From positions 19,230,372 to 19,294,371 of the forward strand of contig JAJEKV010000017.1 in NCBI GenBank assembly GCA_021234155.1: a DNA stretch of 64,000 nucleotides. The letters run 5' to 3'. The DNA is from Isoetes taiwanensis (Eukaryota; Streptophyta; Lycopodiopsida; Isoetales; Isoetaceae). This document shows positions 6,947 through 56,937 of the stretch, piece by piece. How positions within the stretch are numbered: position 1 is the stretch's first letter; each line of letters starts with the position of its first letter. Made by a program: the position numbers and the translations under genes. A model generated the notes under the pieces. The model was not told the DNA's origin, made no database searches, and saw only the letters and a list, made by a program, of their open reading frames with translations.

Positions 6947-9220
6947 ATGTCAAGCAGGTTTGGAGCAGGGTTGCTAAATGCCATAGAAGTGTTTAAAGGA
7001 GATTCTGGTTTTCAAGTTTGGAAGGAAAAGGTTAAGCATGTCTTGGAAGTAGAAGATCTTTGGGATCTAATAGAACCAGCTGAAGATGAAGTGAGTTTAA
7101 GGAGGAGAGTTGTGACTTAAGGCAGCTCGAGCAGTGGAGGTAATGCAGAAGTGCAAGATGAAGAAGTAAGCGAGGTATCTGCAAGAGGAGGCTCAGGAGA
7201 GAAGGCTAGAATAAAGGAAGCCCAAGGAATCATTATGAGCAAGGTAAGTTCCAGCATTGTGCTGAAACTTAGAGGTATAACACCTAAGCAAATGTGGAAT
7301 TATTTGTTGATCAATTATGGGGAAAAGACATCCTCTCAGATTGATGTGTTGGAAAATGAGTTAAGAAGGCTTAAGTTTAATGAAGGTGATGATGTCAATG
7401 AGTTCTTGTAGAACTTTGACAATGTGATAGCAGATCTAGAAGGAGCTGGAGTACCTTATACTCAGCAACGGCAAGTTTTGGCCATGTCAAGAGCTTGCTC
7501 TGGTTTAGGTAATATATCTATCTTTATGAGAACCATTGCCAAAACTAAAATAGAAGCAGAAAGGATGCTGAAAACAGAGTTGGAGCAAAATAAGGTACTT
7601 GGAGAGAATGATACTGCCCAAATTCTTTTTGTTAAAGAGGAAACTCATGTTGGAGGTAGAGTTGGCCCTTGTTTTAATTGTAATAAATATGGGCATTTAA
7701 AGATTGATTGCCCTAATGTGACTAGGGAGATTACCTGCTATCACTGTGGTGGCAGAGGACACATTGCTTCAACATGTTCTACTCCTAAGGAAAATACTAA
7801 TGCAAGGGGAAGGGGCAGAGGTAGCAGAGGGTCTGGACTTAGAGGCAGGGAAAGAGGAAGAGCTGGAAAGTATAACTATGAAGCAAATGTAGCTGAAGAA
7901 GTGAAACTTGAAGAAGAAAGCCCTGAAGAAAATGATGAGGTAAGTAAAACTCAGATTTTTGCAATTTCTGATAAAGGAATTGATGATGACATGTTGATTA
8001 TAGATAGTGGAGCTGAAAAATCGATAACATGCTCTTCCAAACATTTGAAGGATTGCAATGGGAGCAAAATTGGTCACATTCAAGTAGGAGATGGTAGTTT
8101 GCAGAAAATAGAGGACGTTGGAGTACTTGAATTATTTGATTTGGATGGAAGGATTGTAAATTTAAAAAATGTGCTTTGTGTTCCTACATTAGTGAGGAAT
8201 CTCATATCAATATCCCAACTTGTAGACATGGGATTCAAGGTTGTTTTTGAACAACTTGAATGTAAAATTTATGAAGGGAATAAATTGAGGTTTCTTGGAA
8301 AAAGAGTTGGCAATTTATTTGGATTAAGTTCTCAATGTATGGGCAGTATAAATTTGACCACTGTTGCAAATTTTCAAACCTGGCATGAAAGGATGGGACA
8401 TGCTGGCACAAAGTATATTGAAACAATGGTTAAGAAGGATTGGATTAAATGCAAAATTAATGGAAACAATGTGGAAACATGTATGGGCTGTATGTTAGGC
8501 AAACACAGCAGATTACCTTTTTCAAAAGCCAAGAAAAGAGCTAAAGCTCCACTGGAATTAGTACATACAGATCTATGTGGCCCACTAAATGTCACTGGAA
8601 TTACTGGAAAAAAATATTTCATTACTTTTGTTGATGATTTTAGCAGAAAAACACAGGTTTACTGTCTAAGGAGCAAAGATCTTGTCTTTGATGCTTTTAA
8701 GAAGGATCAAATGTGCTCTACTGGAAGAAGGATCAAGTGTGTTTGATCAGACAGAGGAGGTGAGTACATGTCTTTTAAGTTTATAAAGTTTTGCATTGAA
8801 AGAGGAATTAGAAGACAGTTTACTTGTAGCTACACACCTCAACAAAATGGTGTGGCTGAGAGAAAGAATAAGACAATTCTCAATGCAGTTAGATCGATGC
8901 TAAAGCATAGTGGATTGCCCAATTTCTTGTGGGAAGAGACTGTGCTAATTCAAAATGGTTTGCCCTCAGTAAGCATTAATAATCATTGTCCAGAGGAACT
9001 TTGGTCTGGCAGCATTCCTAACTATGAAAGATATAAAGCCTATGGATGTCTAAATTATGTACACGTGCCAGAAGAGTTAAGATCCAAGCTTGATGATAGG
9101 TCCACAATAGGATACCTAGTGGGATACGATGAGAATTCAAAAGCTTATAGGATATATAATCCAGCAAATAGGAAGATAATCATAAGCAGAGATGTCACCT
9201 TTGTAGAAAACAAATTGTAA
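6947..9220 (+). pseudogene. Copia gag-protease-integrase coding region
   Basis: Starting at ATG 6947 (MSSRFGAGLLNA), one frame gives in order: a copia gag domain (MWNYLLINYGEK...), two CCHC zinc knuckles (CFNCNKYGHLKIDC and CYHCGGRGHIASTC, ~7669-7780), an RG-rich stretch, the protease DSGA motif near 8003, the GAG-pre-integrase HxxxH/CxxC finger (HERMGHAG...CMGCMLGKH), and an integrase core with D (TDLCGPL), D (SDRGGEY) and E (QNGVAERKN). In-frame stops at 7118, 7409, 8744 and 9218 break it. The 8744 stop lies directly before the second catalytic Asp. All three catalytic integrase residues are still encoded. Confidence 0.92.
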
Positions 9221-9436
9221 AAGCCTACATTAAACAAAGAAGGGTCTGAGAAGGTTGATCAGGGTACTGAAGAAATCCAGGGTGATACAAAGGAATATGA
9301 TTCTGATGAAGATGATCTGAATAATCAAAATGACGATTCCAGTGAAAATCCTGATCAAAAAGAAAAGGGGACAAACATAATAACATCTAAGGAGATTAAG
9401 AGAAGGAGAAATGAAGGAGAAAAGCTCAAAGAAGGA

Positions 9437-11114
9437 ATGCTGGATGATCAGAAAATGTATGGCAGAATGCCAGATGGCAGAAGCATTAGAATACAATCAC
9501 AAAAGGAAAATATGGCACAAGCATCAATGGTGCTTGAGACTGGTATACCAGAATGCTTTGATGAAGCAATTAAAGGTCTAGATGGCAGCAAATGGAAACA
9601 AGCAATGAATGATGAAATTGACTCATTCAACAGAACAGATACTTATGAGGTTGTGGAAAGACCAAAAAATAAGAATGTTGTAGGAAATAAATGGGTGTAT
9701 AAACTGAAGGTAGGAGCTGATGGCAGTCCAAAGCATAAAGCACGCCTTGTGGCTCAGGGATTTACTCAAAGAAAAGGAGTTGATTATGATGAGACCTATT
9801 CTCCAGTTGTGAAGATGAATAGAATCAGAATGATAATTGCTATTGCTAATGCACTTGACTATGAGCTGCAACATATGGATGTAAATACAGCCTTCTTAAA
9901 TGCAAAGCTGGAAGAAGAAATATGTATGGAACAACCACCTGGATACGAGCAAGGAAAAAATAAAGTATGGAAGCTGAACAGAGCAGTGTATGGTCTCAAA
10001 CAATCTCCCAGAGAATGGTACAAATGCATGGATACTTTTTTAATGACACAAGGTTTCAGAAAACTAGACAATGATGGCAATGTCTATTTGTTTGAAGAAA
10101 AGAGTGATCATTGTATAATAGGTCTCTATGTTGATGATTGCATCATGGCTGGAAAAACCATGGAGATTTTGAATAAATGCAAGAATGTTTTAAGTAGCAG
10201 ATTTATGATGACAGATCTTGGTGAACTTAAGAAGGTTTTTTGGTATTGAGGTGACACGTGACAGAAAGAGTAAAAGAATAAACTTGTCACAGAGAAAATA
10301 CATAGAAACAGTGCTAGCAAAATTCAATATGGAAGAATGCAATGAAGTTAAGGCTCCAATTATGCCTGGTTGTAAGATATCAAAGGAAATGTGTCCTCAA
10401 AGTGAGCAGGAAGAAAAATATATGGCAGAAATTCCATTTAGACCATTGATTGGAAGTCTGCTATACATCTCAAATAATACTAGGCCAGATATAAGTTATA
10501 TTGTGAATGTTCTAAGCAGATATAATCATAATCCAGGGAGGCAACATTGGCTTGCAGCTAAAAAGGTGTTAAGATACTTGAAGGGAACAAGAGATATAGG
10601 AATTGAATACTGCACTGATGATTTAAACATGATATGATACTGTGATGCTGACTGGTGTGGAGATCCAGATGAAAGAAGATCACCTTCTGGATATTTACTT
10701 ATGCTAGGAGGAGGGCCAATAAGCTGGAGAAGTAAGAAACAATCTTCTATAGCGCTTTCTACAGCAGAAGCAGAGTACACTTCATCAACCTTGGCAGCCA
10801 AAGAAATTGTATGGACTAGGAGAATGCTGGAGGAATTGGGAATAAAACAGAATGGAAAAACAGTCCTATATAGTGACAGTAAAAGTTGCATTTCCATGTC
10901 TAAAAATCCTGTCATGCATGAGAGGACAAAACGCATTGAGATGAAGATGCACTTTATTAGGGATATGGTTAATAAAAATGTCATTCAGTTGGAGCATATA
11001 AAATCTGAAGAACAATTAGCAGATATTCTTACAAAAGTTTTGAGTACCAACAGGTTTAATATGCTGACAGAAAAAATAAGTTGCAGGGAAAGATACAGAG
11101 AAATTGTAAAATGA
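9437..11114 (+). pseudogene. Copia reverse transcriptase and RNase H
   Basis: The RT runs from TYEVVERPKNKNVVGNKWVYK through KARLVAQGFTQ, DYDETYSPVVKMNRIR, DVNTAFLNAKLEEEI, AVYGLKQSPREWY to the catalytic LYVDDCIMAGK (~10123). A frameshift near 10235 (run of T in GGTTTTTTGG) moves the rest to another frame. That part gives the LIGSLLYISNNTRPDI block and, after an in-frame TGA at 10635, RNase H (SWRSKKQSSIALSTAEAEY, LYSDSKSCISMSKNP, IKSEEQLADILTK). YVDD and the RNase H acidic residues are present. The order IN before RT confirms copia. Confidence 0.92.
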
Positions 11115-14914: not shown

Positions 14915-15028
14915 TTTTTCCCTCGAAAACCCTTCGGGGCAGGGGTTTTTTAATCCGGGTAGTAATCCGCTTGCTGCGCTTTTGTATTGGGTCCCATAGA
15001 CCGATTGGTCTCCGTGGACGATAAAAAT
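14915..15028 (+). repeat. Shared 3' tail module, LINE-B copy
   Basis: Order of words on the plus strand: TTTTTCCCTCGAAAACCC, a TTCGGGGC loop, GGGGTTTTTTAATCC, GGTAGTAATCC, then TTGGGTCCCATAG, ACCGATTGGTCTCCGTGGAC and GATAAAAATAC. The AAAACCC...GGGGTTTT arms can pair as a hairpin. The same module occurs at 274-400, 62840-62975, 63290-63425 and, diverged or partial, at 35590-35684 and 54024-54095. Confidence 0.85.
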
Positions 15029-15029
15029 A

Positions 15030-15057
15030 CCTTCCTTCCTTCCTTCCTTCCTTCCTT
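15030..15057. repeat. (CTTC)7 microsatellite tail of LINE-B
   Basis: Seven CTTC units follow GATAAAAATAC directly and are followed by TTAGCC of LINE-A. The LINE-A target word CTCCTT at the other end of the insertion shares the CCTT unit. Confidence 0.9.
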
Positions 15058-15978
15058 AGCCTTGACAAGATGCCTGCTTTTTGACCACTCCTTAATCCAG
15101 TTTTTAATGCTCTTTATCTTACCATAGAAGTTCTTCATAGACTGCTGATTACAATCTTCAGGGATGTGCTGATAGAAATTTCTGAAATCTCTCACAAAGG
15201 ATTCATTCTCAAGAAGAGCACAGTTGAATTTGTAAGAAATATTACCATCCCTTGGAATTTGAGTCAACTGTCTAGTGCATAAAAATTGAGGTTGGCGATC
15301 AGAAACAATGTTCCCTTCATCACTAGTGACATAACAGTTATCCCAAAGAGAGGAGTTGGGACTACACACATAAAAGCTGTCTAGGGCACAGTAGACTCTT
15401 TTATCTCTTTTCTGCTTATTTGACCAAGTAAAAGAAGTAGTAGATGAAGGGACATAAACAACGGAAGAATCAGAAATAAAGGTATCCCAATTATATCTCT
15501 CAAGAGTGGACATGTTGATATTATTACCAAGCTTCATATTCCAAGAAGGGGTGTTGTTGAAGTCACCACCAACAATCCAGTCTGAGTTAGGATTATTGTG
15601 CATCCATGAGTTAATTTCTGTCCAAAGCAACTCCCTATCTTTTGGGCTAGTGGAGGCATAGATATTAATAATTCCAAAAACAGAGTCTTGGTACTTGAAG
15701 GTAACAGCTTGCCACATTTTGGATGGGGAATTGAAGAAGAAAAGATACTTAAGATTTTTCCAAATCATAATAATGCCACTACTTCTACCAGTGGCCTCAA
15801 TCCAAGTGGAGGAGGCTTCAGGGTAAATCCAATCCCCAAGATTGGAGATTTCAAATTTGGGAAGCTTAACTTCTTGAAGAAGAATGACATCAGCATTGTA
15901 GTTCGTGATTCGGGAGATAGCTCTTCTCCTTTTAATAGGGCCTTTGATACCCCTAACATTCCAGGAAAAAATCTTCAT
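15055..15978 (-). pseudogene. LINE-A ORF2 apurinic endonuclease domain
   Basis: The minus-strand frame starting at ATG 15978 (MKIFSWNVRGIKG) encodes an APE-type endonuclease: the N motif FSWNVRGI, E in ILLQEVKL, GIIMIWKN, INIYAS, the DWIVGGDFNNTP motif, SFTWSNKQKRDKRVYCALDSFYV and the terminal SDRQPQF (normally SDHxP, so the catalytic His is changed to Arg). The domain nicks target DNA in target-primed reverse transcription. The frame is open for about 300 codons and then runs into LINE-B at RHLVKAK. The SDH-to-SDR change suggests lost activity. Confidence 0.88.
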
Positions 15979-16027
15979 TAGAAAAATGAAGAGAATGACC
16001 AGGTAAGAAAGGGACAGACCAAAGAAG

Positions 16028-17323
16028 TTAGAGTCTGATAAGTTTCTTTTTTCCCCTTCCCTTTTTGTTTTTACTTCTAGTATTGGCAGCTGGAGTATTT
16101 TGCAGATTAGTGAGCTCAGCAAGGGCTGAGTCACCCTTTTTGGACTTAGTCAAAGTTTTGGCTCGAGAAGGTTTTGGTTTGGTAAATAACTCAACAGTGG
16201 AGCAATCAGCAAGAAATTTATCACCTTCCCAATTTTCCTTGTCAGGCTCTTCTTCACTATCATTCGAAGTCCCCCCAGGGATAAATTCAAACATTTTATT
16301 TTTATAAGGGGAAGACTCAATTATATTTATAGATCTATCATTAATAATAGAGCAAATAGGAAGAGAAGAAACATGACCTGTAATATCAGCATCCACAGTT
16401 TGAACATCCTGCATAGCAGCAACCTTTGCTTGACTGGAGTCCTTTGAAATAACCACATCCTTCTCAAAAGTATCCTGGCCATAGTCAATCTTTGGAGAAG
16501 CCAATTCCCTTTCTGGAGTGTCTTGAACAATTTTCTCATCCATGAGATTCCAATGGCAAGCCTGCTGAGTTTGAGAGTTGAGACCCTCTTGCAAAGAAGC
16601 TAACTGCTCAGCAATATCAGATGCAATAATGGAGGGTGGAGAAGGGTGAGGATCAGAGGCTGGAGAGAGGTCAATAATAGGAGATTGACAAAGGTTCTTT
16701 TTGCCATCAAATGAGTTGCTCAACAATACTTCCAAATGAAGTTCAGAATTAAGGTTAGCTAATACCTGAAATTGGTTTGAATTACCAATTATTTAGTTGG
16801 TGCAATTCAGCAATTCTTCTTGAGGAGGAGTACTTGAGGCAGAAATCTTTTTTGCAGGAATGATTTGATTATTGTCCACTGCCTTATCTGAAATAGGAGC
16901 AGGAACAGCTTCCACCAAAGTATCTATGGGATCTATCTCAACACAAAACTGTTGCTCATTGTCCAAACTGACTTGTTTCAATATCTTACCATGTTTGTTT
17001 TTCTTGTTTAGTGGACCACTCTTACTCATATAAGAATTGAAAGTATCTAGATTCTCCTTATTCTTTCCTAAACCCTTGGCATCCATAATAATTCTATTCA
17101 AGGTGTCATGTAGATTGTTGACCTTTTCCATACTTTTTGCTGAGGTTTCATGATTTTGTAACACCTTGATTTGCTGAGATGATGCTTTTCCAGTATTAGG
17201 AATCTTCCCATAATCAACTTGAGTTTTTGTATGAAGTGCTTCAACTTTCTGAACCTGGACTTCGCTTAAAATTTTTCTCCTCTGAATTCTTTTGTAGCAC
17301 CCCCCGTGTGAATATGCACCCAA
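16028..17323 (-). pseudogene. LINE-A ORF1 (C-terminal portion)
   Basis: Two adjacent minus-strand frames (17323-16793 and 16735-16028) lie just upstream of the LINE-A endonuclease, with a 49-bp gap before ATG 15978. They are low-complexity, Lys/Ser-rich and end in a strongly basic tail (TRSKNKKGRGKKKLIRL), as the C-terminal part of plant L1 ORF1 does. The usual N-terminal DUF4283-like domain and the CCHC knuckle are absent, so the LINE copy seems 5' truncated. Assignment rests on position and composition. Confidence 0.6.
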
Positions 17324-28947: not shown

Positions 28948-30156
28948 TTAGTCACTATCTGTTGTGTCAGAACGTTGTGGTGCATCTTGTGTGGAATTGT
29001 CTGTAGCTTCTGTATGAAATTGTTTAAGGCGAAAGCCATTAACCAGAGTAGGTAATGGAGTGCCATCCAACTCGGCCAGCTTGAAAACACTGGGTTGAAC
29101 AACTTGAATAATTTGATAAGGACCAAGCCATCTGAACTTTAACTTGCCCGGAAAATTTTTGTAACGAGAATCATAAAGAAGAACCAAATCACCTTCTTTG
29201 AATGTTTTTGTCTTAAGACGTTTGTCATGTAACGATTTCTGCAACTGTTGTCCATGAAGAACACGAATGTAAGCATCTCGCCTAAGTTTATCCAACTGTT
29301 CCAATTGATAAACCCGTTCCTTGAGTGCAGCAGGTGGATTATGTGTTGTAGCAAGTTGGAAACGGAGAGTCGGAAGAATATATTCAAAAGGCATGAGAGC
29401 TTCTTGACCATAAACAAGTTTGAAAGGAGTGTGGTCAGTAGCAATTTTGAAACTGGTGTTGTAGGCCCAAAGAACAGTAGGCAGCTTGTCTTGCCAATCG
29501 GTGCGTGAAGCATCACAAGTTTTCTTGAGAACAGTGACGAGTGTTTTGTTGGTACTTTCAGCCAAGCCATTCCCTTGAGGATAGTAAGGTGTACTCTTCC
29601 TGTGTTGAATGTGAAGATAGTCCGTCAGCTCCTTGATGGTATGATTGACAAAATGCACGCTACGATCACTAACAAGTTCTGTGGGACAACCAAAACGCGT
29701 GATGATGTGCGTGTAGAGAACCTTGGCTGTGCTGGCAGCAGTGTTGTCTAGAAGTGCACAAGCTTCCGCCCATTTGGTAGCATAATCCGTGATGACCAGA
29801 ATATAGCGGGCACGGGTGTGCCGCGCCGGTGGGTCCATGGGCCCCACAAAGTCCATTCCCCATTTGCTGAAGGGAAGTGGCATGGCTATCGGCGTCAAGG
29901 GAAGAGCGTCACGGGCCGTGGGCTTTCCCACACGCTGACAGACGTCACACGTGCGAGCATAAGCGTGGGCATCTTTGAAGAGCGTGGGCCAGAAATATCC
30001 TGCCAGAAGAATTTTACGTGTCGTGGCGTCACCACTAAAATGACCACCACCAAGCCCGTCATGGGCTTGTCGAACAATGTCAGGCACCTCATGAGGGAGG
30101 ACACAACGACGGAGGACCATGTCTTTACCGCGTTTATACAGATGGCCTGCAACCAT
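28948..30156 (-). CDS. Gypsy integrase
   Basis: An uninterrupted 402-codon frame continuing from RNase H: the zinc-binding HHCC domain (HDGLGGGHFSGDATTRKI... CDVCQRVG), then the DDE core with D in KWGMDFVGPM, D in ELVSDRSVHFVN and E in YPQGNGLAESTNKTL, then LWAYNTS, GQEALMPFEYI, and a C-terminal part with GDLVLLYDSR, FPGKLKFRWLGPYQI and LADEL-like LAELDGTPLP. All three catalytic residues are present. The usual SDRG is SDRS here. The stop at 28948 ends the pol polyprotein. Confidence 0.92.
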   Translation of the reverse strand: MVAGHLYKRGKDMVLRRCVLPHEVPDIVRQAHDGLGGGHFSGDATTRKILLAGYFWPTLFKDAHAYARTCDVCQRVGKPTARDALPLTPIAMPLPFSKWGMDFVGPMDPPARHTRARYILVITDYATKWAEACALLDNTAASTAKVLYTHIITRFGCPTELVSDRSVHFVNHTIKELTDYLHIQHRKSTPYYPQGNGLAESTNKTLVTVLKKTCDASRTDWQDKLPTVLWAYNTSFKIATDHTPFKLVYGQEALMPFEYILPTLRFQLATTHNPPAALKERVYQLEQLDKLRRDAYIRVLHGQQLQKSLHDKRLKTKTFKEGDLVLLYDSRYKNFPGKLKFRWLGPYQIIQVVQPSVFKLAELDGTPLPTLVNGFRLKQFHTEATDNSTQDAPQRSDTTDSD

Positions 30157-30171
30157 GGTGTAGTCACGGAC

Positions 30172-31620
30172 CTATCTGAGAAACTGACGGCGGCGGGAGC
30201 GAAGCTTGTCTGGAGAGAGCGTCGAATCTTCGGGAGGAAGAGCACCAATGAGAAGATATTGCTGAAAGTTGTGAAACCAATGGGGCGTGGCCATGACCAG
30301 GAACAATTGAGCGTCTGAAAAGGCGTCAGAAACACCCGTGGAGGGATCATCCGTGTGGATGCGTGAAAGATAATCAGGCACCACATGTGACTTGCCTGCC
30401 TTATGAACAATTTCGAAGGGAGCGAATTCTTGTAGAAGAAGGACCCAACGAGCAATTCTGCCCGTGGGCGTGGCTTTGTTGATTAAATAAAGAAGAGCTT
30501 GATGATCAACAAAGAACTTGATCTGGCTGCCCAACAAATAATGACAGAAATGTTGGACACAGAAAACTAAGCCCAAAGCTTCTCGTTCCGTGGCAGAGTA
30601 ATTGCGCTCAGCAGGATTTAGTTTCCGGCTGGCATAGCGGATTGGCTTATCCGTGTGCGCATCATAGGCCTGAGAAAGAACAGCACCAATGGCAAAAGCA
30701 GAGACATCAACATGAACGTGGAAGGGCTTGTCCCATTGAGGAGGAACAAGTATCGGGGCCTGAGTAAGTAACAGCTTCAACTTCTGAAAAGTAGCTTCCG
30801 CTTGGGGATTCCAAGCCCAAGTGGATTCATCACCCGTAAGTTTATGAATGGGATCAGCTATAGCTGCAAGTCCAGGAATGAAGGTGGAATAGTAATTAAC
30901 CTTACCCAGGAAGGAACGTGTCTCCTTGATATTAGACGGGGCTTGAGCCTTCAGTACACAACTGATTTTAGCGGGATCCGTGGTGATGCCGTCTTTACTG
31001 ACCACATGACCCAACAGAACGCCTGAGGTGACGCAGAAAGTACACTTCTTAGGATTGAGACTAATGCCAGATTCATCACATTTTTGAAAGACAAGCTCCA
31101 ACTTGTCCAAGTGATCATCCATGGAGCTGTAGGCTGAAAAATCATCTTGAAAGATCTGAAGAAAAGGTTTATCCTTCATAAAGTCTTGAAAGACGGAAAG
31201 CATGATACGCTGAAAGGTTGAAGGAGAGTTTGATAAACCAAAAGGTACCACCTTATAGGCAAAAGTGCCCCACGGGGTGGTGAAGGTAGTTTTGAGTTGA
31301 TCTTCCTTCTTGATAGAAATTTGATTGTACCCAGAGAAACCATCCATGGAAGAGTACATCTCATGACCAGCAACTTCTTCAAGGACCTGGTCAGTAAAGA
31401 GGAGCGGAAAGTGATCACGCTCCGTAGCTTGATTGAGTTTTCTGTAGTCCACGCAAACGCGGATTTTGCCATTGTGCTTGAGAGCAATGACGATGGGGCT
31501 CACCCATTCAGAATGTTTGACCTCATAAATTAGGCCAGCAGCTAAGAGTTTGTCAATTTCGGCCTTGACGCGGTCACGGTAATTTGGGTTGAGCCGGTAC
31601 TGTCGTTGCTAGATGGGCGT
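30172..31620 (-). pseudogene. Gypsy reverse transcriptase and RNase H
   Basis: The frame starting at ~31503 gives SPIVIALKHNGKIRVCVDYRKLNQAT, DHFPLLFTDQVLEEVAGHE, the catalytic-Asp block SSMDGFSGYNQI, FAYKVVPFGLSNSPSTFQR, the FQDDFSAYSS box (YxDD equivalent), LGHVVSKDGI, KETRSFLGKVNYY, then RNase H-type blocks (HVHVDVSAFAIGAVLSQ, RNYSATEREALGLVF, FVDHQALLYL). A frame break near 31605, where a stop precedes the QRQYRLNP-like segment, separates it from the upstream linker frame. The catalytic Asp pair is intact. Confidence 0.9.
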
Positions 31621-36251: not shown

Positions 36252-36255
36252 AATG
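36252..36255. repeat. Transposon target-site duplication, left copy (AATG)
   Basis: AATG directly precedes the left TIR and is repeated directly after the right TIR at 45770-45773. Confidence 0.85.
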
Positions 36256-36277
36256 GGGTAAAAGCACGCTGTGGTGT
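36256..36277 (+). repeat. Left terminal inverted repeat
   Basis: GGGTAAAAGCACGCTGTGG plus TGT, a perfect inverted match to 45748-45769. The next bases diverge. Confidence 0.92.
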
Positions 36278-36484
36278 ATCAAAAACGCGCATTTTGACGC
36301 CACATTTTGGCACCACCTTTGTGGTAGAATCGGGTGGTTCATATCGAAGCAGAGATTGCGGGAGTGCGAATTAATGAGCGTCGGTTATTTTGAATTTTAT
36401 GCCACGTCATTGTCCCTCATTTTGAATTCAGAAATAATCACCTCTTCTTCTGTTTTTTTGCCGCTTCTTGTCGATTGAACCCTA

Positions 36485-39400
36485 ATGGAGTCAGAATTGA
36501 ATGCCACTGGTTACACGATGAAATCTCTCCTCAAACAAGAGATTATGCCCCATGAAGATCTAAAGAAGCTTTGGGGTGACAGAGTTCCAAATAAATCTGG
36601 CTACAGGTATTTTCCCCCAAATGTTTTTGTTCAAACTGAAAAATTAAAAATTAAGGCATCTGTTTTCTTGTACAGGTTGAAGAATCTGAGCAATGAACAA
36701 TACAAAGAGTTCATGCAAATTTACAAAAGAATTACAGGGAAGCCATATACATGGGGTGGAATGGCTCCTGGAACCTGGGCAGTGGCTTATTATCTACATA
36801 TAAAGGGGGAGGCTGTTAATTGGAAGAGCTTCTCGGATTTTTATAAAACTCCCGATGAGAAAGCAGAGGCCAGTTCTTCTAGACCCAAGAGAAAGCATAG
36901 GCAAATCCAACCTGACCAGGAGAAGAATAGTAAAAGTGACAGGGATGATGAAGATGATAGGGAAAAAACCAAATCAGGTTCCTCTAGACCACACATTCAA
37001 TCTGAACTCACAATCAAAACAGAAAAACAGAGAAATGTTCTTAGACCAAAACATGCCATTGCAGGTATGTTCAATTATTAGTTGTGTTACAATAGAAAAA
37101 AATCCGGTATGCCTACTACCATTTTGCATCATGTTGGCTGTATTATCATGTTGTGTCTCTATGATGCCATCTGTGGGGCATTTCGTGCAATGGATGCCAG
37201 AATGATAGATGAGGTATGTGTGGTCTGGTGAGTGGTGAGTTGTTGGCATCCACCATGTCCCACACCACACCCCACCATCTCCCAACACTACACTCTACCA
37301 TCTCCCACCGCCACACTCCACCATGTCCCACACCACACCCCTCCACCACACTCCACCACCACCACACTCCACCACCACCACACCACACCACACCCCACCA
37401 CCACACCCCCCCCCCCACCACACTCCACCATGTCCCACACCACACTCCACCACCACCACACTCCACCACCACCCCACCACCACCACCACCAAACCCCACC
37501 ACCACCACCACCACCACCACCACCACCACCACACTTCACCACCCTGCACAATGTCCCACCACTCCTTGCTACCACCACAGCGTGTTGTGTGTGTGTCTTG
37601 TCTTGTGCGATGTTGTGTGGTGTGTGGTATGTGGTGGTGTGTAGAGAGTACCTTGTGTTGTGTGGTGTGTGATTGTGGTTTTCCATCGATTACATGGCTT
37701 ACTATGTTGGGAGGGTGACATATACGTAGTGTTTTGTTTTGCGGACTATGGCGGACTTGTGAAGGAATGGTTGGCTGCAACATCAGCTAGGTTTGATAGA
37801 TGCAAGCAACGATTGCAAACAAACGAGGATAGGAAAAATGATATCAAAAGAAAGATTGAGTTGATGGAGCATAAAACATCGAAATTAGAGCTGATTTGCA
37901 ATGGATGGCAATCAATCATGACAAACAAATCGAAAGCAAAAGAGAGGGTGTTCGGGTTGTAAGCGAACTAAAGGATGAAGAGCTAAATGGTACAGTATTG
38001 CTTGGGCTGAATCAATTAAATAAGGAACTAGCAGAAACTGAAATTGAGCTAAAGGCATGTGAAGACTTACTGCTGGAGCTGCAACCTCGAATGCAAAGAT
38101 TTGAGATTTTTTCTGAGCGTAGTGGTCATGACACTCCTTTAGATCCTGCACTTCCAATGCTTCCTGAGGCAGAAGAAGAGGGTGATGAAGGTTGTCCATT
38201 TTGTGGACGTTGTCTGAAATGGGAGGGTAAAATGTTGCCAGTTGTGATAGCAGAATGCAGTCATCAGTATCACATTCCATATCTATCACACCATTTGAGA
38301 TAAATATTATCATCTCTAACCCTCGTCTAAATACTCTATTGATTTTGAATTTGTTTTGTAGATACTCTAGAACCTGCTGCAGCCCCAGTTGTGCCCACAT
38401 TATGATTGAGACATGGCTTTTGGCTTTTGGTGTTCGAGTGGTACCACAAGAACCAATAGACACAAGTAAGTGCCTTAACTAATGTTTATTGATGTTGTCC
38501 GCGGAGTCTCTTGACTTAGTGTTTTGCGAGTGCGTAAATTTGAGACCAAGGATATCCACTTGAGTTATCCGCCTCGATCAGTTATGAGACTGCAAGATAC
38601 CTCCCGGTTGTACCTAGAATTCCCATTTGATACTCCTAAGTCAATCCCAGCTGCTGACGGCGTGAAGACTCCAAAACGAAATTTGGATAGTGAACTGAAT
38701 GCAGTCATATCAAGTAAGTACCGATGCCACATACATGATTTATTTTTTTGTATTTTTCTGTGGTCTTCCTCATTTCAATTATGTTACAGAGATAAATGCT
38801 ACTGCAACTGGAAGCCATCACGAAGAGATTCCTAGTGCATCTGTTTTAGGGGGGGAAATTAATTCCCTTGAGATTCATTCTGCACGGGGTCCTTCACCAG
38901 AAAAAAGTTTTGGTGCTGAACATGAGCTAAATGCGGATGCAGGTGATGAAGTTGACAAAGAAACCCTGGATCTTGGACAAGATGCAGACTACTCAACGAG
39001 TCCAATATAACCTCAACCAAGAAAAACCAAGAGGTTAACTGAAATTCTCCTTGTTTTGGATTTTAATGGGGTTTTAGGCAAGTTTAATGACTTGAAAGAG
39101 AGGATCCCTGCATCGGCCGAGCCAGAAGTGACCCTCCAGAAATTGAACCTTCAAAAGGCAGCAGTTTCCAGGCCTGGATTACAGGAGTTCTTAGAATGGT
39201 GTTTTTCAAAATTTGAGATTGCATTGTGGTCCAGCATGGCTAAGAGTAATGTTGACTTGTTGATGAGAAAGTTGCTGCAGGAATATAAGGGCAGATTTCT
39301 TTTTATTTGGAATCAGGATGACTGCACCAACACAAATTTAAAAGTGGTTAATAAGCCAATTTTCCTTAAGGATCTGTCCAAAGTGTACCAGAAATTCTGG

Positions 39401-39670
39401 AAATACCAGGTGAAAAACACATTGTTGATAGATGACAACAGATATAAGGGTTCTGCCAACCAGCCGAACACAATGATATGTCTAAATAGTTTTGCTCCCG
39501 ACAGGTTGGATTCCAATTTCCTTTTGGAGCAACTCAAACCATGGATGGAGGGACTTCTGGCTGCAGAAAGTGTGCCAGCTTATGTGAAGGAACATCAAAT
39601 GTGGAACATGTGGGATACTGAAGAGTCGCGCAACTGCATGAAAATGCTCGATAAGTATTTTCATAAATGA
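36485..39670 (+). pseudogene. Transposon gene A: coiled-coil, RING-like and FCP1-like domains
   Basis: ATG 36485 opens 193 codons (exon 1 to ~37064, donor GCAG|GTATGT) of an unrecognised N-terminus with YTWGGMAPGTWAVAYYLHIKG and a charged, Ser/Lys-rich tail. Next comes DAICGAFRAMDARMIDE (donor GAG|GTATGT at 37214) and a 0.5 kb intron of CCACC repeats. Then a coiled coil (37745-38100), a zinc-finger block CPFCGRC...ECSHQYH... and, after an intron, CCSPSCAHIM (38195-38400). Last is an FCP1/NIF-like HAD phosphatase domain (39045-39670): LLVLDFNGVLG, WSSMAKSNVD, FIWNQDDC, LLIDDNRYKGS. The nucleophile motif is DFNG, with the second catalytic Asp replaced by Asn, as in a plant NIF-like subfamily. 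An in-frame TAA at 39008 splits the chain. Exon borders are partly guesses. Confidence 0.65.
37255..37675 (+). repeat. CCACC/CCACCA-rich array, then GTGTG-rich stretch
   Basis: About 300 bp almost without G on the plus strand ((CCACACC)n, (CCACCA)n) is followed by about 100 bp rich in GTGTG/TGTGG. It lies between a GTATGT donor (37214) and the next coding trace (~37728), so it is intronic in gene A. Proline/histidine-rich open frames across it are artefacts. Confidence 0.9.
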
Positions 39671-39753
39671 ATGTTGTAAAACTCTTTGAACGTCAATATA
39701 AGTAAAAAAATTTCTATGATATGTGTTGTACTTTTTCAATTTAAGATATTTGA

Positions 39754-40726
39754 ATGGATTGTGAGCAAATGTTCTCGTGTGTGTTTAGAACTAGAGATGA
39801 TAGAGCTTCGGCAGTCCTTGTCTATCTAAAGCCAAATACACATTTGAAAGTGGTGCTGATTAGAACTGAAACTGTCGTGATTAGCTCCACCCACATCAAA
39901 ATTTTGGAAGCTGATACGCAGTGGTTCAATGATCAATTGATCCTCCTCTTCTCAAGGTGATACTTTCATCTGATTTGTGATCATCAGGATTGTGCCATCA
40001 TATGCATATATTTGCAGATACATGGAATACTACTTGATGCTCCAAGGAATGAGCCATCCCTTTCATTTCTTTGACCCTCTTTTTCACTCGACATTGTCCA
40101 AGAACACAAATAGTTACAAAACAATAAGGAAACATGTGAATCTGGATAAGTGCCAGTACATGTTTTTGCCTACTTGTGATGGACCTCACTGGACCTGTTT
40201 TCTGATTGTAAGCCACGCGAGTCTCGCACAAAGATATAAACCAGGGATATATCACTTTGATAGCTCGGGCTTGCATGGCAGAAGCAGACATATTGAGAGG
40301 TTGGTGCTTGCTCATTGCATTTTGCTGTTGTGGCACAATGACAACAAACTTTGAATGCAGGTTCCTGGAATTGCTTGGACACACTAATTTCAGCTTTACA
40401 ACCTCAGATGTTGTGAAAATTTTCAGAACGCGTCTTCAAACCAATGGTCATTCATGTGGCCCTGCCATATGTTCGTTTATGCACAAATTTGTGAGGGGGT
40501 ACTTGAAAGGAGTGAATATATTGTTGCCTGATCTAGTAAGTCAACTCAAATGCAGCAGACAAACCAAACTCTGTTATTGACAAAGTGTGGTTAACTGCAG
40601 GTTGTGGACATTTCAGACCAGGATCTAGTTGATGTTAGAGTGTTCATGCTTGAAATTTTAAGATTAGAAGCAACAAAAGCTGGAACAGAGATGAACATAT
40701 GTATTGTGAAGTATGTAGGTGCATGA
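39754..40726 (+). CDS. Transposon gene C: Ulp1-like (C48) cysteine protease
   Basis: Four exons with clean splice sites: 39754-39956, 40018-40299, 40361-40535 and 40600-40726. The spliced frame is open to the TGA at 40724. Motifs in order are ILEADTQWFNDQLILLFSR (the W-L-x-D entry motif of Ulp1), LPTCDGPHWTCFLI with the catalytic His, IYHFDSSGL with the Asp, and RLQTNGHSCGPAICSFM with the oxyanion Gln and the Cys. Ulp1 enzymes cut SUMO or similar tags, and several plant DNA transposons carry relatives. No lesion is visible. The start codon is the first in frame, but it could instead be joined to gene A, whose stop is 83 bp upstream. Confidence 0.82.
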
Positions 40727-40943
40727 GTCACCTCGTACTTGAAATCACTGTATATCTTTCTTATGTACATAATTGTTATTGTAACCTCGATTCATTTGAA
40801 AGAAAATTCATATTCAATTCATCTCACAAACAAAGGAATCAAGTGTTCAGAAGAATTCAAATCTTCAAAAGAAATCAAGACAAACTCATTTTCACAGCTG
40901 AAGCACAAAACTTCACATGAGTTCTGAAAACTACATAATGGTT
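40727..40943. other. Convergent intergenic spacer of transposon
   Basis: Only 217 bp separate the two convergent stop codons. It is AT-rich and contains words such as AATTGTTATTGTAAC that may serve 3'-end formation on either strand. No exact poly(A) signal was fixed. Confidence 0.5.
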
Positions 40944-42557
40944 TTACATTTCAACTTCGGGTAAATTCTGTAAAATTTTCTCCTCATCTAAAGGATCCAG
41001 CCTATATACAGTCCTGTTTTGACGTTTAGTTGGTGGCATGTGAAGTCTGATTGCACAGATCTGTGTTGTGAATACTATGCCTAAGGCGTCTTTACTGCAA
41101 AGATCATAGCTGACGGTTGATCTTGCGCCCGTCTTGTAATACATACCTTCTATGACACTATCACCGGCGAGGTACCATGTTCCATTGAGTTGGAAGTCTT
41201 TCTCCACTATCCATTTTGGTTTTGTGCACATCAGACTCCAAAATTCAGAACGCTCATCATTCCTTTTCGGAGCAACGACAGCAAAATTATCACCAACTCT
41301 AAGTGCCTTTGCTAACATCGTGGGATTCGAGGAGAACAAGGACCTGCTGGATTTACAGTCCTCAATGTCAGCATGCACATTGGAGGATGGTACAATAGCT
41401 TGAAGTTTCCAATCATCAACATAGTGCTTGTTCACACAACTGTCCCACATGCCATCCAAGCAGTAGCTGCAGAAGCATGAAAGTTCCCTCGTGTGCAACT
41501 GCAATGGAGATTCAGGATTGAATGCATGTACACAATGGATCTGCCTAGTGTCCAAAATCCTTTCTGCACCCCATGCTTTCTTTCTATCTATATCCTCCAC
41601 CTTGACTTCCCAAAAGAACCTTTTTATATTCTTCCTCTTACTGGTTTCAGATGTGTTCATCCACTCAGATGTTCCACAAGTAAACATCTCTTCGGCAACT
41701 TCTACCACTTCATGAGCATTACCCAATTTTATGCTGCTGTATTTTAATTGCAGTTGTCTTTACCATCTCTTCAACTCAGCAGCTTTGCCATCGTGTTCAC
41801 ATTTCCCGTGGTTAGAACCAAAAAAATTCCACATCATATAGACATCAGTGTCGTTTGTGTACCTAGCCACAAAGTAAAATGGTCTAGAAGCCTGGAATTG
41901 AGATGTTGCACCATCTGAAAACACATAATGTCTCTTTGGCACCCTTCCTTTCTGCTCCAGATATTTGTGGTGCTTCATGAAGCAGTATTGCACGAACAAA
42001 GTATCGTGTTCCCTATCATCTGATACATAGTAATGCGTTTCCTTGATAATCTCATCTGCCACTGAGTCGTACTGATATGTTATTTGAACCAAAATGGTAA
42101 TCTGGTTATTGACCCAGTGCATCGACTGCACCTCCTCTTCTTCCTTGAATGTATAGTTCTCTGCAAAATCCACTACCGAAAGACATGCATCTGCTGGGAG
42201 ATTCTTCAGAAGCTCCTTAAATTGTTTTGCCTGCCATTGGTACCTGAAATTATGCAGTGGAAAGATTTTTAGACGCTCTTTCAGTTTATCCAGAAGCTCC
42301 TTGGGTTCTGTCTCATTGTACTGATGAGTCAATCTCCTACCAGAACTCGAGACGTTGTCTTTTTCATAGTCAATGTACTCCCATTTCACTTTCTTATTAC
42401 TACCACTTTCTTCCATGGGACAGGTCTGAAACTTCTTGATTCCACACAGCTCACAATCTCCAAGGATGCACGCCTTCTTGTGAAACTCATCTAATTCACT
42501 CTTTGGACACAATATAGATCTCCACAAGCTTCCTGTACTTGCAATTTTATGCTGGTG

Positions 42558-42840
42558 TGCCGGGTAAGAGCATGTTAGGGCCTACATGTTTTGGAAACTA
42601 CCTGGAAAATACTCTGGGTAGTCAAAGATGATGATATATTTGAGTTCTTAACATCTTCTTGACATCATAAGGTACCTTACAACATGTATGTACTACTACT
42701 CTTGAACATAACACAATTTCTTTTAGTCAATCTTGTAGTCTAGATACTTTAAAATACAATTATGTACTTGCACAAAAGTACACAGAAAAGTACCTTTTTG
42801 GTAATTTTTTATGTAGGCCCTAACATGCTTTCACCCTGCC
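42558..42840. mobile_element. 275-bp MITE inside transposase exon
   Basis: Positions 42562-42836 are bounded by inverted repeats GGGTAAGAGCATGTTAGGGC and GGGTGAAAGCATGTTAGGGC (26 bp in all, two mismatches) and flanked by TGCC on both sides (42558-42561 and 42837-42840). Leaving out the MITE and one TGCC copy, the transposase reading frame runs on without a break between GQCRA and HQHKIAS. So it entered an exon, not an intron. Its TIR start GGGTRARAGCA resembles the 9.5 kb element's GGGTAAAAGCA and the TSD length is the same, which suggests the same superfamily. Confidence 0.9.
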
Positions 42841-43252
42841 CTGCATTGACCAAGTTCATGTGATCTACAAACATCGCAGGTGCAAGTGCAATTCTTCGGA
42901 TGTTTGGTCCTCATTCCATTGAGTCCATCCACTAGCATTTGCATCCTCACGTGCTGAATGCAACAACAACTATTGAAGTCCTTCAATTTCACAACAAACC
43001 AGGGTTTTAGCTTCTCAAAAGCTCGAAGACGAATCTTAATTTCTGGATGTTGGTCCAGAAACCTCTTGAACAATAGCATCTGCATGAAATGAACACTAAA
43101 CTGTTAGGATGTGTATATCACACCAAACCATGCACCATACCATGCCCTACACTCATCATATTCACCAGAACAAGCACCTTAGTGCTGTATACATTACCAC
43201 ACACCACACCCCACCACACACCACACCATTCACCACACACCATACACCAAAT

Positions 43253-43705
43253 GGTGGAGTGTGGTGGTGGGGGGTGGTGGTGGAGTGGTGTGTGGTGGTG
43301 GTGGGGTGGGGTGGTGGGGGGTGGTGTGTGGTGGTGGTGGTGGTGTGGTGTGGTGTTGTGGATTGTGGTGTGATGTGGTGTGGTGGTGGTGGTGGAGTGT
43401 GGTGGAGGGGTGTGGTGTGGTACATGGTTGAGTGTGGTGGAGGGTTGTGGTGTGGGATATGGTGGAGTGTGGTGGAGCGTGGTGGTAATGGCAATGTGGT
43501 GCATGTGGTGGTAATGTGGTGGTCGCAAAGATGTGGTGGTAGTCTATGGTGGTGGGATAGATGATGGGGTGTGGTGGGGTGAGGGGGGAGAATAAATAAA
43601 ATTGAATCCACACATATCATGCATTCACATGACACCATGGACACCACACCACACCACACCACACCACACCACACCACACCACACCACACCACACCACACC
43701 ACACA
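43253..43705 (-). repeat. GGTGG-rich array and (ACACC)n in transposase intron
   Basis: From 43253 to ~43580 the plus strand is G/T-rich (GGTGGTGG, GTGTGGT), that is CCACC-rich on the sense strand of the transposase gene. A regular (ACACC)n run of about 12 units follows at 43642-43704. It lies in the 43074-44750 intron. The pattern mirrors the array in gene A. Confidence 0.9.
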
Positions 43706-43872
43706 TCACATCACATTACATCACTTTTATCCTATTTCGTCTGACATAAAAAATCTGCCTAGCCTGCTCTCATAAACATTTCTGAAATTCGTACACCCTG
43801 ATAATAATTACATTCCTCTTCTTATCATTAGAAAAGTATCTGGGTCCTAAATCCTGTTCCTGCGTCTGATTT

Positions 43873-44328
43873 TTGGCGTTTCATCGGCATATGTTAAATC
43901 GGCATATGTTAAATCGGGCTCGTGACCAATATCTGAAGGTGGCAATGCGTAAATCCACCTTCTTTGCTGATTTCGAATCCAACCTAAAAGCATATAACAG
44001 AGTGGATGTTGGGCCTTCAATGGCTATGCTTGGGGTCAGATTGACAGGAAGAGAGCTCTTAGACAAGGTCCATGACCTTATGTTATGCGCTACTGCAAAG
44101 GCAGCTGGTTTATTTGTTCTCTGTCACTTGTCCGCTCTGACTCTGCAACAACGGGAATTACTCATAGGGTTGCGTTCTTACCACCAGGGGATGCAGGAAG
44201 CACTGGCAAACCTCATCCTGTTAAATTCTGGGATGACTGCAGAAAGCTTAGATGCTTTGGTGCAGAACACAATAATTTTGGATGCACCAGTTGTCGAGCC
44301 AGTCATACCAGCATTTCCTGCTGCTTAG
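43873..44328 (+). CDS. Unrecognised 151-codon ORF in transposase intron
   Basis: An open frame on the strand opposite to the transposase, with natural-looking composition (HMLNRARDQYLKVAMRKSTF, FESNLKAYNRVDVGPSMAML, LRSYHQGMQEALANLILLNS) and predicted helices, ending FPAA-stop. A 15-bp tandem duplication (CATATGTTAAATCGG) lies at its start, so the first Met is uncertain. I do not recognise the family. It could be an exon of a passenger gene or a captured host fragment. Confidence 0.45.
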   Translation: MAFHRHMLNRHMLNRARDQYLKVAMRKSTFFADFESNLKAYNRVDVGPSMAMLGVRLTGRELLDKVHDLMLCATAKAAGLFVLCHLSALTLQQRELLIGLRSYHQGMQEALANLILLNSGMTAESLDALVQNTIILDAPVVEPVIPAFPAA

Positions 44329-45747
44329 GAAATGCATGTAAATTTAGTTCTCGGGTACAGAGCTTTCAATGGAAAGCCAAATTTTGTAAAGCCAAATTTT
44401 GTAAGAACTTTTTTTTTTAATATATTATACTTTCCAGCAGAGCTGTGCTTGAATCTGACAAAAAATTGTCTTTATTCAACAAAAATTTGTACTTCTTAGG
44501 ACCAGTTAGTTATCTATCATTCTCAAATATTTTTAGACTGTACACACACCCAGTAAAGGAGTAATCAATTCTGTCATGTTCTAATATTCCAAACATTAAA
44601 TATTGCATTTCAGACTAGAGTCAACTACACACAATTCACATGCTGCATACAGTATGCACCACAATCACTGTACAACACAATAACCACCACATGCACCACC
44701 ACACTAAGCACCATAACTAAGAAAACATGAATAACAGAAATAAACTAACCTGTAATTCCTCCAGATAGTGGGCAGCATGTTCTTCTCTTACATTTCTCTC
44801 CAATCTTCTAGTTCTAACATCCTTTGTGTTAGGAGACACTCTGGTGTTCTCAATCCAAAAATTTTGAATCTTTTCTATATGTTCATCTGAAATTGCATCG
44901 AATCTTTTAGCCCTCTTGTAAGAAACCTATTTCCCACCATTGTAATCGATCTCTTCCCTCTTTTTCTTTGCCTTTTGCAGGTTTCTTGGGTGAACACCTA
45001 ATACCTTTCCAAGATCTCATTTGGCTGATTTTGTCACTTGTTTGAGAAATCGCGCGTAGTATCTGATTATTGCAAAGGCTGACTATTCTTGGGCTGCTAG
45101 GCGGGTCATTGCTGGTAGAGAGTTTGACGATGCATGGAGTCCCGAGGCTCCTTATAGCGATGCTCTTGGCTTCCGAATCCTTTAATTCTTCACCTATGAA
45201 TTTTTCTAATGTTTTATCCCTCAAAAACTCAAGTAAAATTTCTTTCTTCATGCTATCCTCCACTTCTTTTTGGTACATTTTATGGAAAGATGTTAGCAAA
45301 TTAAGGACAATACGGCGTTTATTGCTTGCACTTCTTGAGGAACCGGATCATACGCCAATGGTCGCAAGCTCCATTTTTTCTTCTCTTCTTCTTTTCCTCT
45401 GGCGTCTTTTCTTCAATATTTCTTGTTCCTTGGTTCTTCTTCGTTTTCTCCTGTCTGAAATGCCGGTTTGTGGACAGATTACCTCATTGACATCCATATC
45501 CACAATGGATTGGAGTTTGCAGCAGGGAGGGAGCCAAAGAACATGACGTAGGCAAAGAACAGGAAGGAACCAAAGAATAGGAATTTGAATTTGAATTTTA
45601 GTTTTTGAAATTAGAATTTCCCCCACAAATTGGGACTCTATTCTTAAATAATGGCAGCTGAGCGGTGCCATACTTATACTTTCATACCACAAAAGTGGTG
45701 GATGCAATGCCACATTTTGGGGGGACAGGGGGGACAGCCGAATTGGA

Positions 45748-45769
45748 ACACCACAGCGTGCTTTTACCC
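45748..45769 (-). repeat. Right terminal inverted repeat
   Basis: The reverse complement begins GGGTAAAAGCACGCTGTGG and matches the left end perfectly for 22 bp. AATG follows. Confidence 0.92.
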
Positions 45770-45773
45770 AATG

Positions 45774-55353: not shown

Positions 55354-56937
55354 ATGAAGGTATTATGGGGAATGTCGATCTCAGTTGTTTTAATCAATCT
55401 AGCTGCCATATTAGAAAGGGCTGATGAAACACTGATCCCTTCAGTGTACAAAGAAATCGGGCAGACTTTTAATGCTACACCTGCTGAACTAGGGACTCTC
55501 ACATTTATTCGCGCTGTTATACAAGCTCTCTTTTCCCCTTTAGCTGGTGTGCTGGCCTTGAAGTACCATAGGCCATCAGTTATTGGGCTTGGCACTTTGT
55601 TCTGGGCAGTTTCTACAGCTGCTGTAGGTCTCTCCCAGAGCTTCTTTCAATGCGCGCTGTCTAGAGCAACAAACGGAATTGGACTAGCTATTGTTATTCC
55701 AGCAATGCAGTCATATGTAGCTGACAGCAATTTAGAAGGAAGTCGCGGGGTTGCCTTTGGTTGGCTGAACTTTGTTGGATCAGTTGGTGGCATAGGGGGT
55801 AGTATGACAGCAACAGTCTTAGCAGGTTACACCATTGCTGGCTTACCCGGTTGGCGATTTACTTTTCTTTCAATGGCAATATTGAGCTCTTTGATAGGAA
55901 TACTTATCCATATGGTAGTGATGGACCCAAAGGACCATGGAACATCCCTATTTCCTACTAATGTAAATGCTGAAAAGTAAGTCTTTAAACCATAGCATGA
56001 TTCGCATTTTTTGTTCTCTCCTGAAGCTATAATGTTAAGATTAACATAGGTCAGCATTCTCATCCTCAAAGTCGCATTCACTTGCAGAAGACTTCATACA
56101 GGACAAATGGCAAAAGTTGTTGCAAATTTATGGAGAGAAACTTCAAAGGCAGTTAGGACTGTACTAAGAGTTCGAACATTCCAGATAATAGTTCTTCAAG
56201 GAATTGTTGGATCATTGCCATGGTCAGCAATGGTGTTCTTTACAATGTGGTTTGAGCTGATTGGCAAGTTTTTACAACCCTCATCCTGTATACTAATAGA
56301 TCTGTTGTTTTTATGTGCATATTCATGCCATACTTATCACCATAAATATCTTCCTCCAGGATTTGGCCATAATACAGCAGCATTATTGATAGGTTTTTTC
56401 ACAGTTGGTTGTGCTTTTGGTGCTCTTATGGGTGGCTGGCTGGGTGACAAAGCCGCAGTACAATTTCCCAAGACTGGGCGGGTAATGTGTGCCCAGTTTA
56501 GCTCATTTATGGGCATCCCATTTTCTTGGTTATTACTTCGTGGCCTTCCCCAAGATCCAGAGAAATGGGCCTATTTTGCCGTAACACTTTTGTTTATGGG
56601 CTTGACTATAAGTTGGTGCCAGGCATGTGCTAATAATCCTATGTTTGCAAGCGTCGTACCCCCAAAAGATAGAACAATGATTTATGCATTTGACAGGGCT
56701 TTTGAGGGCTCCTTTGCTGCTTTAGCAGCTCCACTTGTAGGTATTTTAGCAGAAAGATTGTATGGCTATAGAACACTGGTGACCATCTCAGATTCAGGAT
56801 CCTTACATGAAGCTGATGCGCTTTCTAAAGGTCTTCTTACAATGATGGCACTTCCGTTTGCACTCTGCTGTTTATGCTACACCCCACTTTATGTCACTTA
56901 CACTCAGGATTATAAAATAGCACAGCAATGGCACTAG
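55354..56937 (+). CDS. Major facilitator superfamily transporter (plant MFS)
   Basis: Exons 55354-55976, 56088-56263 and 56360-56937 give a protein of about 458 residues, membrane-embedded with roughly 12 hydrophobic segments. Motifs are NLAAILERADETLIPSVYKE near the N-terminus, the RATNGIGLAIVIPAMQSYVA segment, GVAFGWLNFVGSVGGIGG, and GALMGGWLGDKAA as the loop of the second half. It resembles a small plant MFS group that I recall as Arabidopsis At4g36790/At2g18590; substrate unknown. Intron 1 is GT-AG (GAAAA|GTAAGT...TTGCAG). Intron 2 must begin with GC (ATTG|GCAAGT...CCTCCAG, 96 bp) to restore WFELIGFGHNTAA. It contains no stop, so retention would add 32 residues. No lesion seen. This is the only intact-looking host gene here. 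Confidence 0.88.

Follow-up and report, generated by a model that had tools for sequence, protein, structure and literature searches.

The 64,000-nt stretch of the quillwort Isoetes taiwanensis analysed here (contig JAJEKV010000017.1, positions 19,230,372 to 19,294,371; hereafter the window) contains a transposon at positions 36256-45769 that carries, beside its transposase gene, an accessory unit encoding a RING-like finger, a NIF/FCP1-homology domain and a Ulp1 SUMO-protease-like domain. All 11 coding pieces of the element were matched in 13/13 copies bounded by terminal inverted repeats (TIRs), the window copy included, supporting the proposal of the first-pass annotation that these genes move as one unit. 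With modest confidence, we read the element as a member of a Sola-like cut-and-paste transposon family of quillwort whose accessory gene acts against silencing or aids transposition.

Element structure and copies in the genome

Positions 36256-45769 form a single element of 9,514 bp, and the first-pass description of a 9.5 kb TIR transposon was borne out. Perfect 22-bp TIRs (GGGTAAAAGCACGCTGTGGTGT) lie at 36256-36277 (+) and 45748-45769 (-), flanked by AATG target-site duplications at 36252-36255 and 45770-45773, and enclose two convergent multi-exon units, the accessory unit on the plus strand and the transposase on the minus strand. A 19-mer from the TIR occurs twice in the window against none expected from 100 shuffles. 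In the genome (1,658,258,908 bases in 1,110 contigs) it was found with up to two mismatches at 765 places (380 + 385), compared with 6 (5 + 1) for the reversed control. Low-complexity CCACA/TGTGG arrays at 37240-37690 and 43190-43720 are probably intronic.

Genome-wide search with the TIRs recovered 12 further TIR-bounded copies, taken as facing TIR pairs 9.4-11.3 kb apart among about 100 TIR places listed; facing pairs of 12 kb or more were left out. These copies and the window copy end at the same points, and the 4-bp duplications are identical within each copy (13/13): AATG, AAAA, TTAT, CATG (twice), CAGT, AAAG, TTAA, ACGT, AAGA, TACT (twice) and TTCA. The two contrary outcomes named in the first-pass annotation, copies ending at different points or FCP1/Ulp1 genes never found inside TIR pairs, were seen in none of the copies examined. 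One further copy, C35, was taken from its left end only and for that reason lacks the last pieces; counts over 14 copies below refer to the window and 13 aligned copies. Two copies about 30 kb apart (C919a and C919b, C919:7894453-7935263) share both flanks and are therefore counted as one insertion, since they probably represent a duplicated segment rather than two insertions.

By coordinates, at least 61 of 141 transposase places in the genome are accompanied by a NIF or Ulp1 place with the expected spacing and orientation, and a NIF place immediately precedes at least 62 of 150 Ulp1 places. The window contains other mobile elements, and one is nested inside this element, so the arrangement might have been fortuitous: a transposon located next to FCP1 and Ulp1 genes of the host, or several elements nested in one another. 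Thirteen copies that agree in their ends and content and have matching duplications refute this explanation, which we regard as vanishingly improbable. The plus-strand unit, comprising an N-terminal domain A1, a coiled coil, the RING-H2-like finger, NIF and Ulp1, is part of the element.

The transposase

The minus-strand gene is predicted to encode a transposase that has an RNase H fold and a D-D-D triad. Its main exon (40947-42561) includes the RNase H-like catalytic core and, in the window copy, a stop at 41760-41762; the cysteine-rich upstream end of this exon lies at 42837-43103, and one or more N-terminal exons with a basic region lie at 44750-45500, with approximate boundaries. A 152-aa open frame on the plus strand between the two parts of the gene (43870-44325) resembles no other named piece. 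The predicted model of the core aligns with integrase cores, and D138, D223 and D264 are conserved, their equivalence to integrase residues being judged from the aligned ranges. The earlier claim of a DDE transposase thus finds its support in predicted structure and in no Pfam family: no Pfam transposase family matched any transposase exon or scanned relative, a result that leaves room for a distant tie, and at E 1 none of the transposase exons matched rve, a profile that does recognise Gypsy pieces in other parts of the window. The named relatives come from moss, liverwort and yew. A distant relative, P0076, has a weak C-terminal OTU-like match (E 0.015, below cut-off) that recalls the OTU/Ulp1 tails of Ginger1. 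The transposase would be expected to cleave at the GGGTAAAAGCA termini and to integrate the element through cuts staggered by 4 bp.

The accessory unit

The accessory unit begins with A1 (36486-37066; exons at about 36486-36606 and 36676-37066, from open frames and splice sites). A1 has no Pfam match and appears to be a novel domain without known relatives. The next exon (37764-38299) encodes a coiled coil and the first half of a RING-H2-like finger (CPFC...ECxHxYH), the second half of which lies at 38362-38466; linker exons with approximate boundaries follow at 38541-39010. The frame of the coiled-coil/RING exon is broken near 37900 in the window copy, possibly by an assembly error. A RING-like finger, as named in the first-pass annotation, is present, and no profile matches it above cut-off. 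A three-row alignment of this exon found no relatives at E 1e-3 among 5.8 billion proteins. A match of the coiled coil to BRE1 in one copy (E 7e-6, below cut-off) was dropped when a second copy gave none.

The NIF/FCP1-homology (HAD) domain at 39011-39654 was confirmed by its match to PF03031 (E 5.2e-17 in the window), and both its fold and its profile place it in the NIF family. DxDx(T/V) is the catalytic motif of NIF/SCP-type phosphatases. The main family instead has DFNGVL (at 39059 in the window), with an Asn codon in place of the second Asp codon in all 13 main-family copies that cover the site, and two diverged copies, C1033 and C1066, have FELDGVL, with Glu at the position of the first Asp. 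Among 22 relatives covering the motif, the first Asp is retained in 5 and the second in none. The nearest relatives are flowering-plant proteins of the type annotated as FCP1 homology domain-containing protein C1271.03c-like; these are 28-44% identical to the element NIF and have also lost the second Asp. The 23 relatives aligned are 175-293 aa long, and Pfam gives them at most NIF among the matches listed. Since the active site is degenerate both in the element and in its plant relatives, the NIF domain is probably a pseudophosphatase with a docking role. The first-pass annotation had suggested an active phosphatase working on polymerase C-terminal domain (CTD) marks; the profile match and the fold agree with such an enzyme family, but the degenerate motif makes catalytic action on CTD marks unlikely, the structural model is of moderate quality (pLDDT, the predicted local distance difference test score, 70.5), and an active CTD or other protein phosphatase seems to us quite improbable. 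The genome also contains many other intact frames with a NIF domain, about 236, 259 and 276-288 aa long, which may belong to other transposon families or to a large host gene family. In a sample of 61 of 139 NIF places, 5 lie beside a RING place (78 of 150 listed) and 1 beside a diverged transposase place (30).

The Ulp1/C48-like domain spans 39789-40726 (+), with exons at about 39789-39956, 40018-40299, 40361-40535 and 40601-40726. Once spliced, the window sequence matches PF02902 at 31.6 bits against a cut-off of 20.7, confirming the earlier Ulp1 prediction, while a single exon alone falls below the cut-off; the spliced domain also matches SENP5 (1.1e-4 against PDB). The window copy has all four of the residues that we take to be the active site, His, Asp, Gln and Cys, in HW, HFDS and QTNGHSCG. 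HFDS and the Cys stretch are each kept in 14/14 copies. The NIF frame stops at 39668-39670. A proposed GT...AG intron at 39655-39788, with its donor GT in 13/14 copies and its acceptor AG in 14/14, would bypass this stop and carry the frame into Ulp1. We lean towards RING, NIF and Ulp1 forming one protein; otherwise Ulp1 would be a gene of its own, with its start at 39754, 83 bp past the NIF stop codon.

Diverged copies and selection on the accessory unit

Copies outside the main family differ in their accessory content. C1033 (58% identity in the transposase) spans 9,771 bp between GGGTTAAAGCATGCAATAGCGTCTCAAT and GGGTCAAAGCACAATATAGTGTCTCAAA, TIRs detected by a search allowing mismatches, and has AAAA on both sides, which is weak evidence in an A-rich place. 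It contains the transposase, A1, RING and the putative start of a NIF domain, with no Ulp1 match in place. C1066 (57%), fetched in part, has RING, A1 and NIF (E 2.5e-17), with no Ulp1 in the 3 kb separating NIF from the transposase. Among less diverged copies, C996 (68%) lies 2.2 kb from a Ulp1 place. The 7 kb fetched for C1064 (69%) showed none of the accessory pieces, but its transposase is 9.2 kb away from a NIF place. By coordinates, 10 of the 30 transposase places with less than 70% identity are paired with one of 59 RING places on the other strand at a distance of up to 16 kb, and for 7 of these the distance is at most 8.5 kb. Many diverged RING places retain open frames some 200 aa long. 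RING and NIF thus seem to be old components of the lineage. Neither of the two diverged copies examined yielded a Ulp1 match, so that Ulp1 was either acquired within a single branch or lost outside it.

Between C1033 and C1066, the ratio of nonsynonymous to synonymous substitution rates (dN/dS) is 0.16 for A1, 0.28 for the RING exon and 0.22 for the C-terminal part of the transposase. Against the main family it is 0.41 for RING (C1066 with C35) and 0.29 for the transposase (C1033 with the window), other comparisons being saturated. The A1 and RING parts are thus under purifying selection between two diverged copies, figures that cover A1 and RING and not Ulp1. As the values lie close to that of the transposase, the accessory gene is kept by selection much as the transposase is. 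These data bear on the possibility that the accessory domains are fragments of host genes that were picked up passively (transduplication) and have no function. Passive capture would agree with a NIF domain closest to plant cellular proteins, with a Ulp1 domain not found in the two diverged copies, and with the neutral pattern of decay by codon position in the main family. The transposase-like dN/dS of A1 and of the RING/coiled-coil exon, the many diverged RING places with open frames and the same modules in 13/13 copies speak against it. Passive capture is already weakened for A1 and RING, and we consider it unlikely overall.

Nested element, sequence quality and neighbouring sequences

The transposase gene of the window copy is interrupted by a nested 275-bp miniature inverted-repeat transposable element (MITE) at 42562-42836, with 26-bp TIRs beginning GGGTRARAGCA and a TGCC duplication; the site is empty in the 13 other aligned copies. 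The MITE ends start like those of its host element, and a 95% copy of the MITE lies elsewhere within copy C907a.

In the coding parts of the 13 aligned copies, differences from the window are enriched 2.5-fold near C[AT]G (indels 0.426, mismatches 0.428, background 0.171) and about twofold near CG (indels 0.175, mismatches 0.161, background 0.090). The I. taiwanensis assembly was built from Nanopore reads and polished with Nanopore and Illumina data, according to the available part of PMC8566536. Clustering at CAG/CTG likely reflects Nanopore errors at methylated CHG sites of the assembly; such errors could account for the indels, and decay of methylated sites for the mismatches. Given this enrichment, frameshifts in single copies deserve caution.

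Elsewhere in the window, mobile-element pieces comprise an RVT_1 frame at 4948-6006 (-), a Copia-type element at 7424-10249 (+), an Exo_endo_phos frame at 14953-16134 (-) and a Gypsy-type pol at 28951-31503 (-). MFS transporter-like frames at 55354-56937 (+) probably belong to a host gene.

Possible role of the accessory protein

How the accessory protein might serve the element was considered by analogy with known systems. It would be a cofactor encoded by the element that relieves host silencing: the RING/coiled coil and NIF would direct it to its targets, and Ulp1 would remove SUMO from silencing proteins. We hold this mechanism to be possible, at a little short of an even chance; its best precedent is the VANC and KIU genes of VANDAL elements. 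The main rival is a direct part for the accessory protein in transposition, such as shielding the transposase or removing SUMO from it, with no connection to silencing. This rival fits the purifying selection on the accessory gene, which is comparable to that on the transposase, as well as the C-terminal Ulp1 or OTU domains of most Ginger1 transposases (PMC2836005, available part) and the weak OTU match of P0076. No direct evidence speaks against it, but separate convergent units would seem to resemble VANDAL-type accessory genes more than fused helpers. We regard a direct role in transposition as somewhat unlikely. Only tentatively do we suggest a broader scheme, in which an integrase-fold DDD plant lineage keeps a second core protein, composed of a RING-type finger and a plant-derived HAD pseudophosphatase with a SUMO protease in one branch, that acts as an anti-silencing switch and arose independently of the Ulp1-bearing VANDAL elements.

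Several observations weigh against our reading of a Sola-like family with a working accessory gene. Among the matches listed (150 each), 80 of the 141 transposase places have no NIF or Ulp1 partner, and some or all of the accessory pieces were not found in the parts examined of C1033, C1066 and C1064, as described above. The NIF start of C1033 was read by eye, its profile match being non-significant (E 0.22). Selection was measured on one diverged pair, with NIF represented by 65 saturated codons (proportions of synonymous and nonsynonymous differences, pS 0.82 and pN 0.37). Within the main family, NIF has a dN/dS of 0.67 from few changes, and substitutions show no codon-position bias. The RING-like finger falls below every curated cut-off (best zf-rbx1, 12-22 bits against 31), and the Ulp1 His stretch CACTGG is as in the window in 4/14 copies and altered or shifted in the other 10. 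For the transposase core, Foldseek alone gives weak matches (best E 7e-4, template modelling score about 0.3), and short Argonautes score equal to integrases in the structure comparison. In the window copy itself, the coiled-coil frame is disrupted, and the transposase gene contains a stop and the nested MITE.

Comparison with known transposons

The marks of the element fit those of Sola. In the available part of PMC10741241, Sola elements are described with 4-bp duplications, a DDD transposase, a size of mostly 2-9 kb with some over 15 kb, and TIRs within 11-1124 bp; they occur in moss and are apparently not common in flowering plants. The element shares the 4-bp duplication (13/13), the DDD triad, the size and a host outside the flowering plants, and is likened to Sola by this published description, not by sequence. 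Sola2 elements carry extra proteins such as Fanzor1 (PMC3627910, available part), whereas a NIF and Ulp1 cargo is not mentioned for Sola in the available parts of these two papers. A limited search of open-licence papers met no element combining a RING-like finger, NIF and Ulp1. Within that search, the first-pass statement that no described superfamily has exactly this set stands for the gene content; the marks fit the Sola description.

Ginger1 elements, as described in the available part of PMC2836005, have an integrase-type core related to Gypsy integrases, a 4-bp duplication at CCGG/CCGT-specific targets, TGTNR ends and 40-270-bp TIRs. The integrase-type core, the 4-bp duplication and the Ulp1 or OTU partners are points of likeness; in Ginger1, Ulp1 is fused to the transposase, while here it lies in a separate unit. 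Membership in Ginger1 was rejected on the duplications (AATG, AAAA, TTAT and others), the GGGTA ends, and the lack of a CCGG/CCGT target, TGTNR termini, TIRs of 40-270 bp or an rve match. Membership in MULE/VANDAL was likewise rejected, as these have 7-12-bp duplications (PMC10741241) against 4 bp in 13/13 copies.

The closest parallel for the accessory unit comes from the VANDAL elements, non-TIR MULEs of Arabidopsis. VANC counteracts their silencing (PMC10398659, available part), and KIU genes are VANC genes with an added Ulp1, which a review available in part links to silencing escape, describing the precise function of the Ulp1 as unknown (PMC13317346); the main text of PMC5735166 mentions neither Ulp1 nor KIU. 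The present element resembles KIU-carrying VANDALs in having several genes per element and a Ulp1 added to an accessory gene. It differs in transposase group, duplication and host, and no NIF or RING appears for KIU in the available part of PMC13317346. As copies exist with and without Ulp1, those of the lycophyte offer a natural comparison for what a SUMO protease does for a transposon. Ulp1-bearing plant transposons were already known; here, an unrelated transposon lineage has Ulp1 beside an accessory gene whose A1 and RING parts are under purifying selection.

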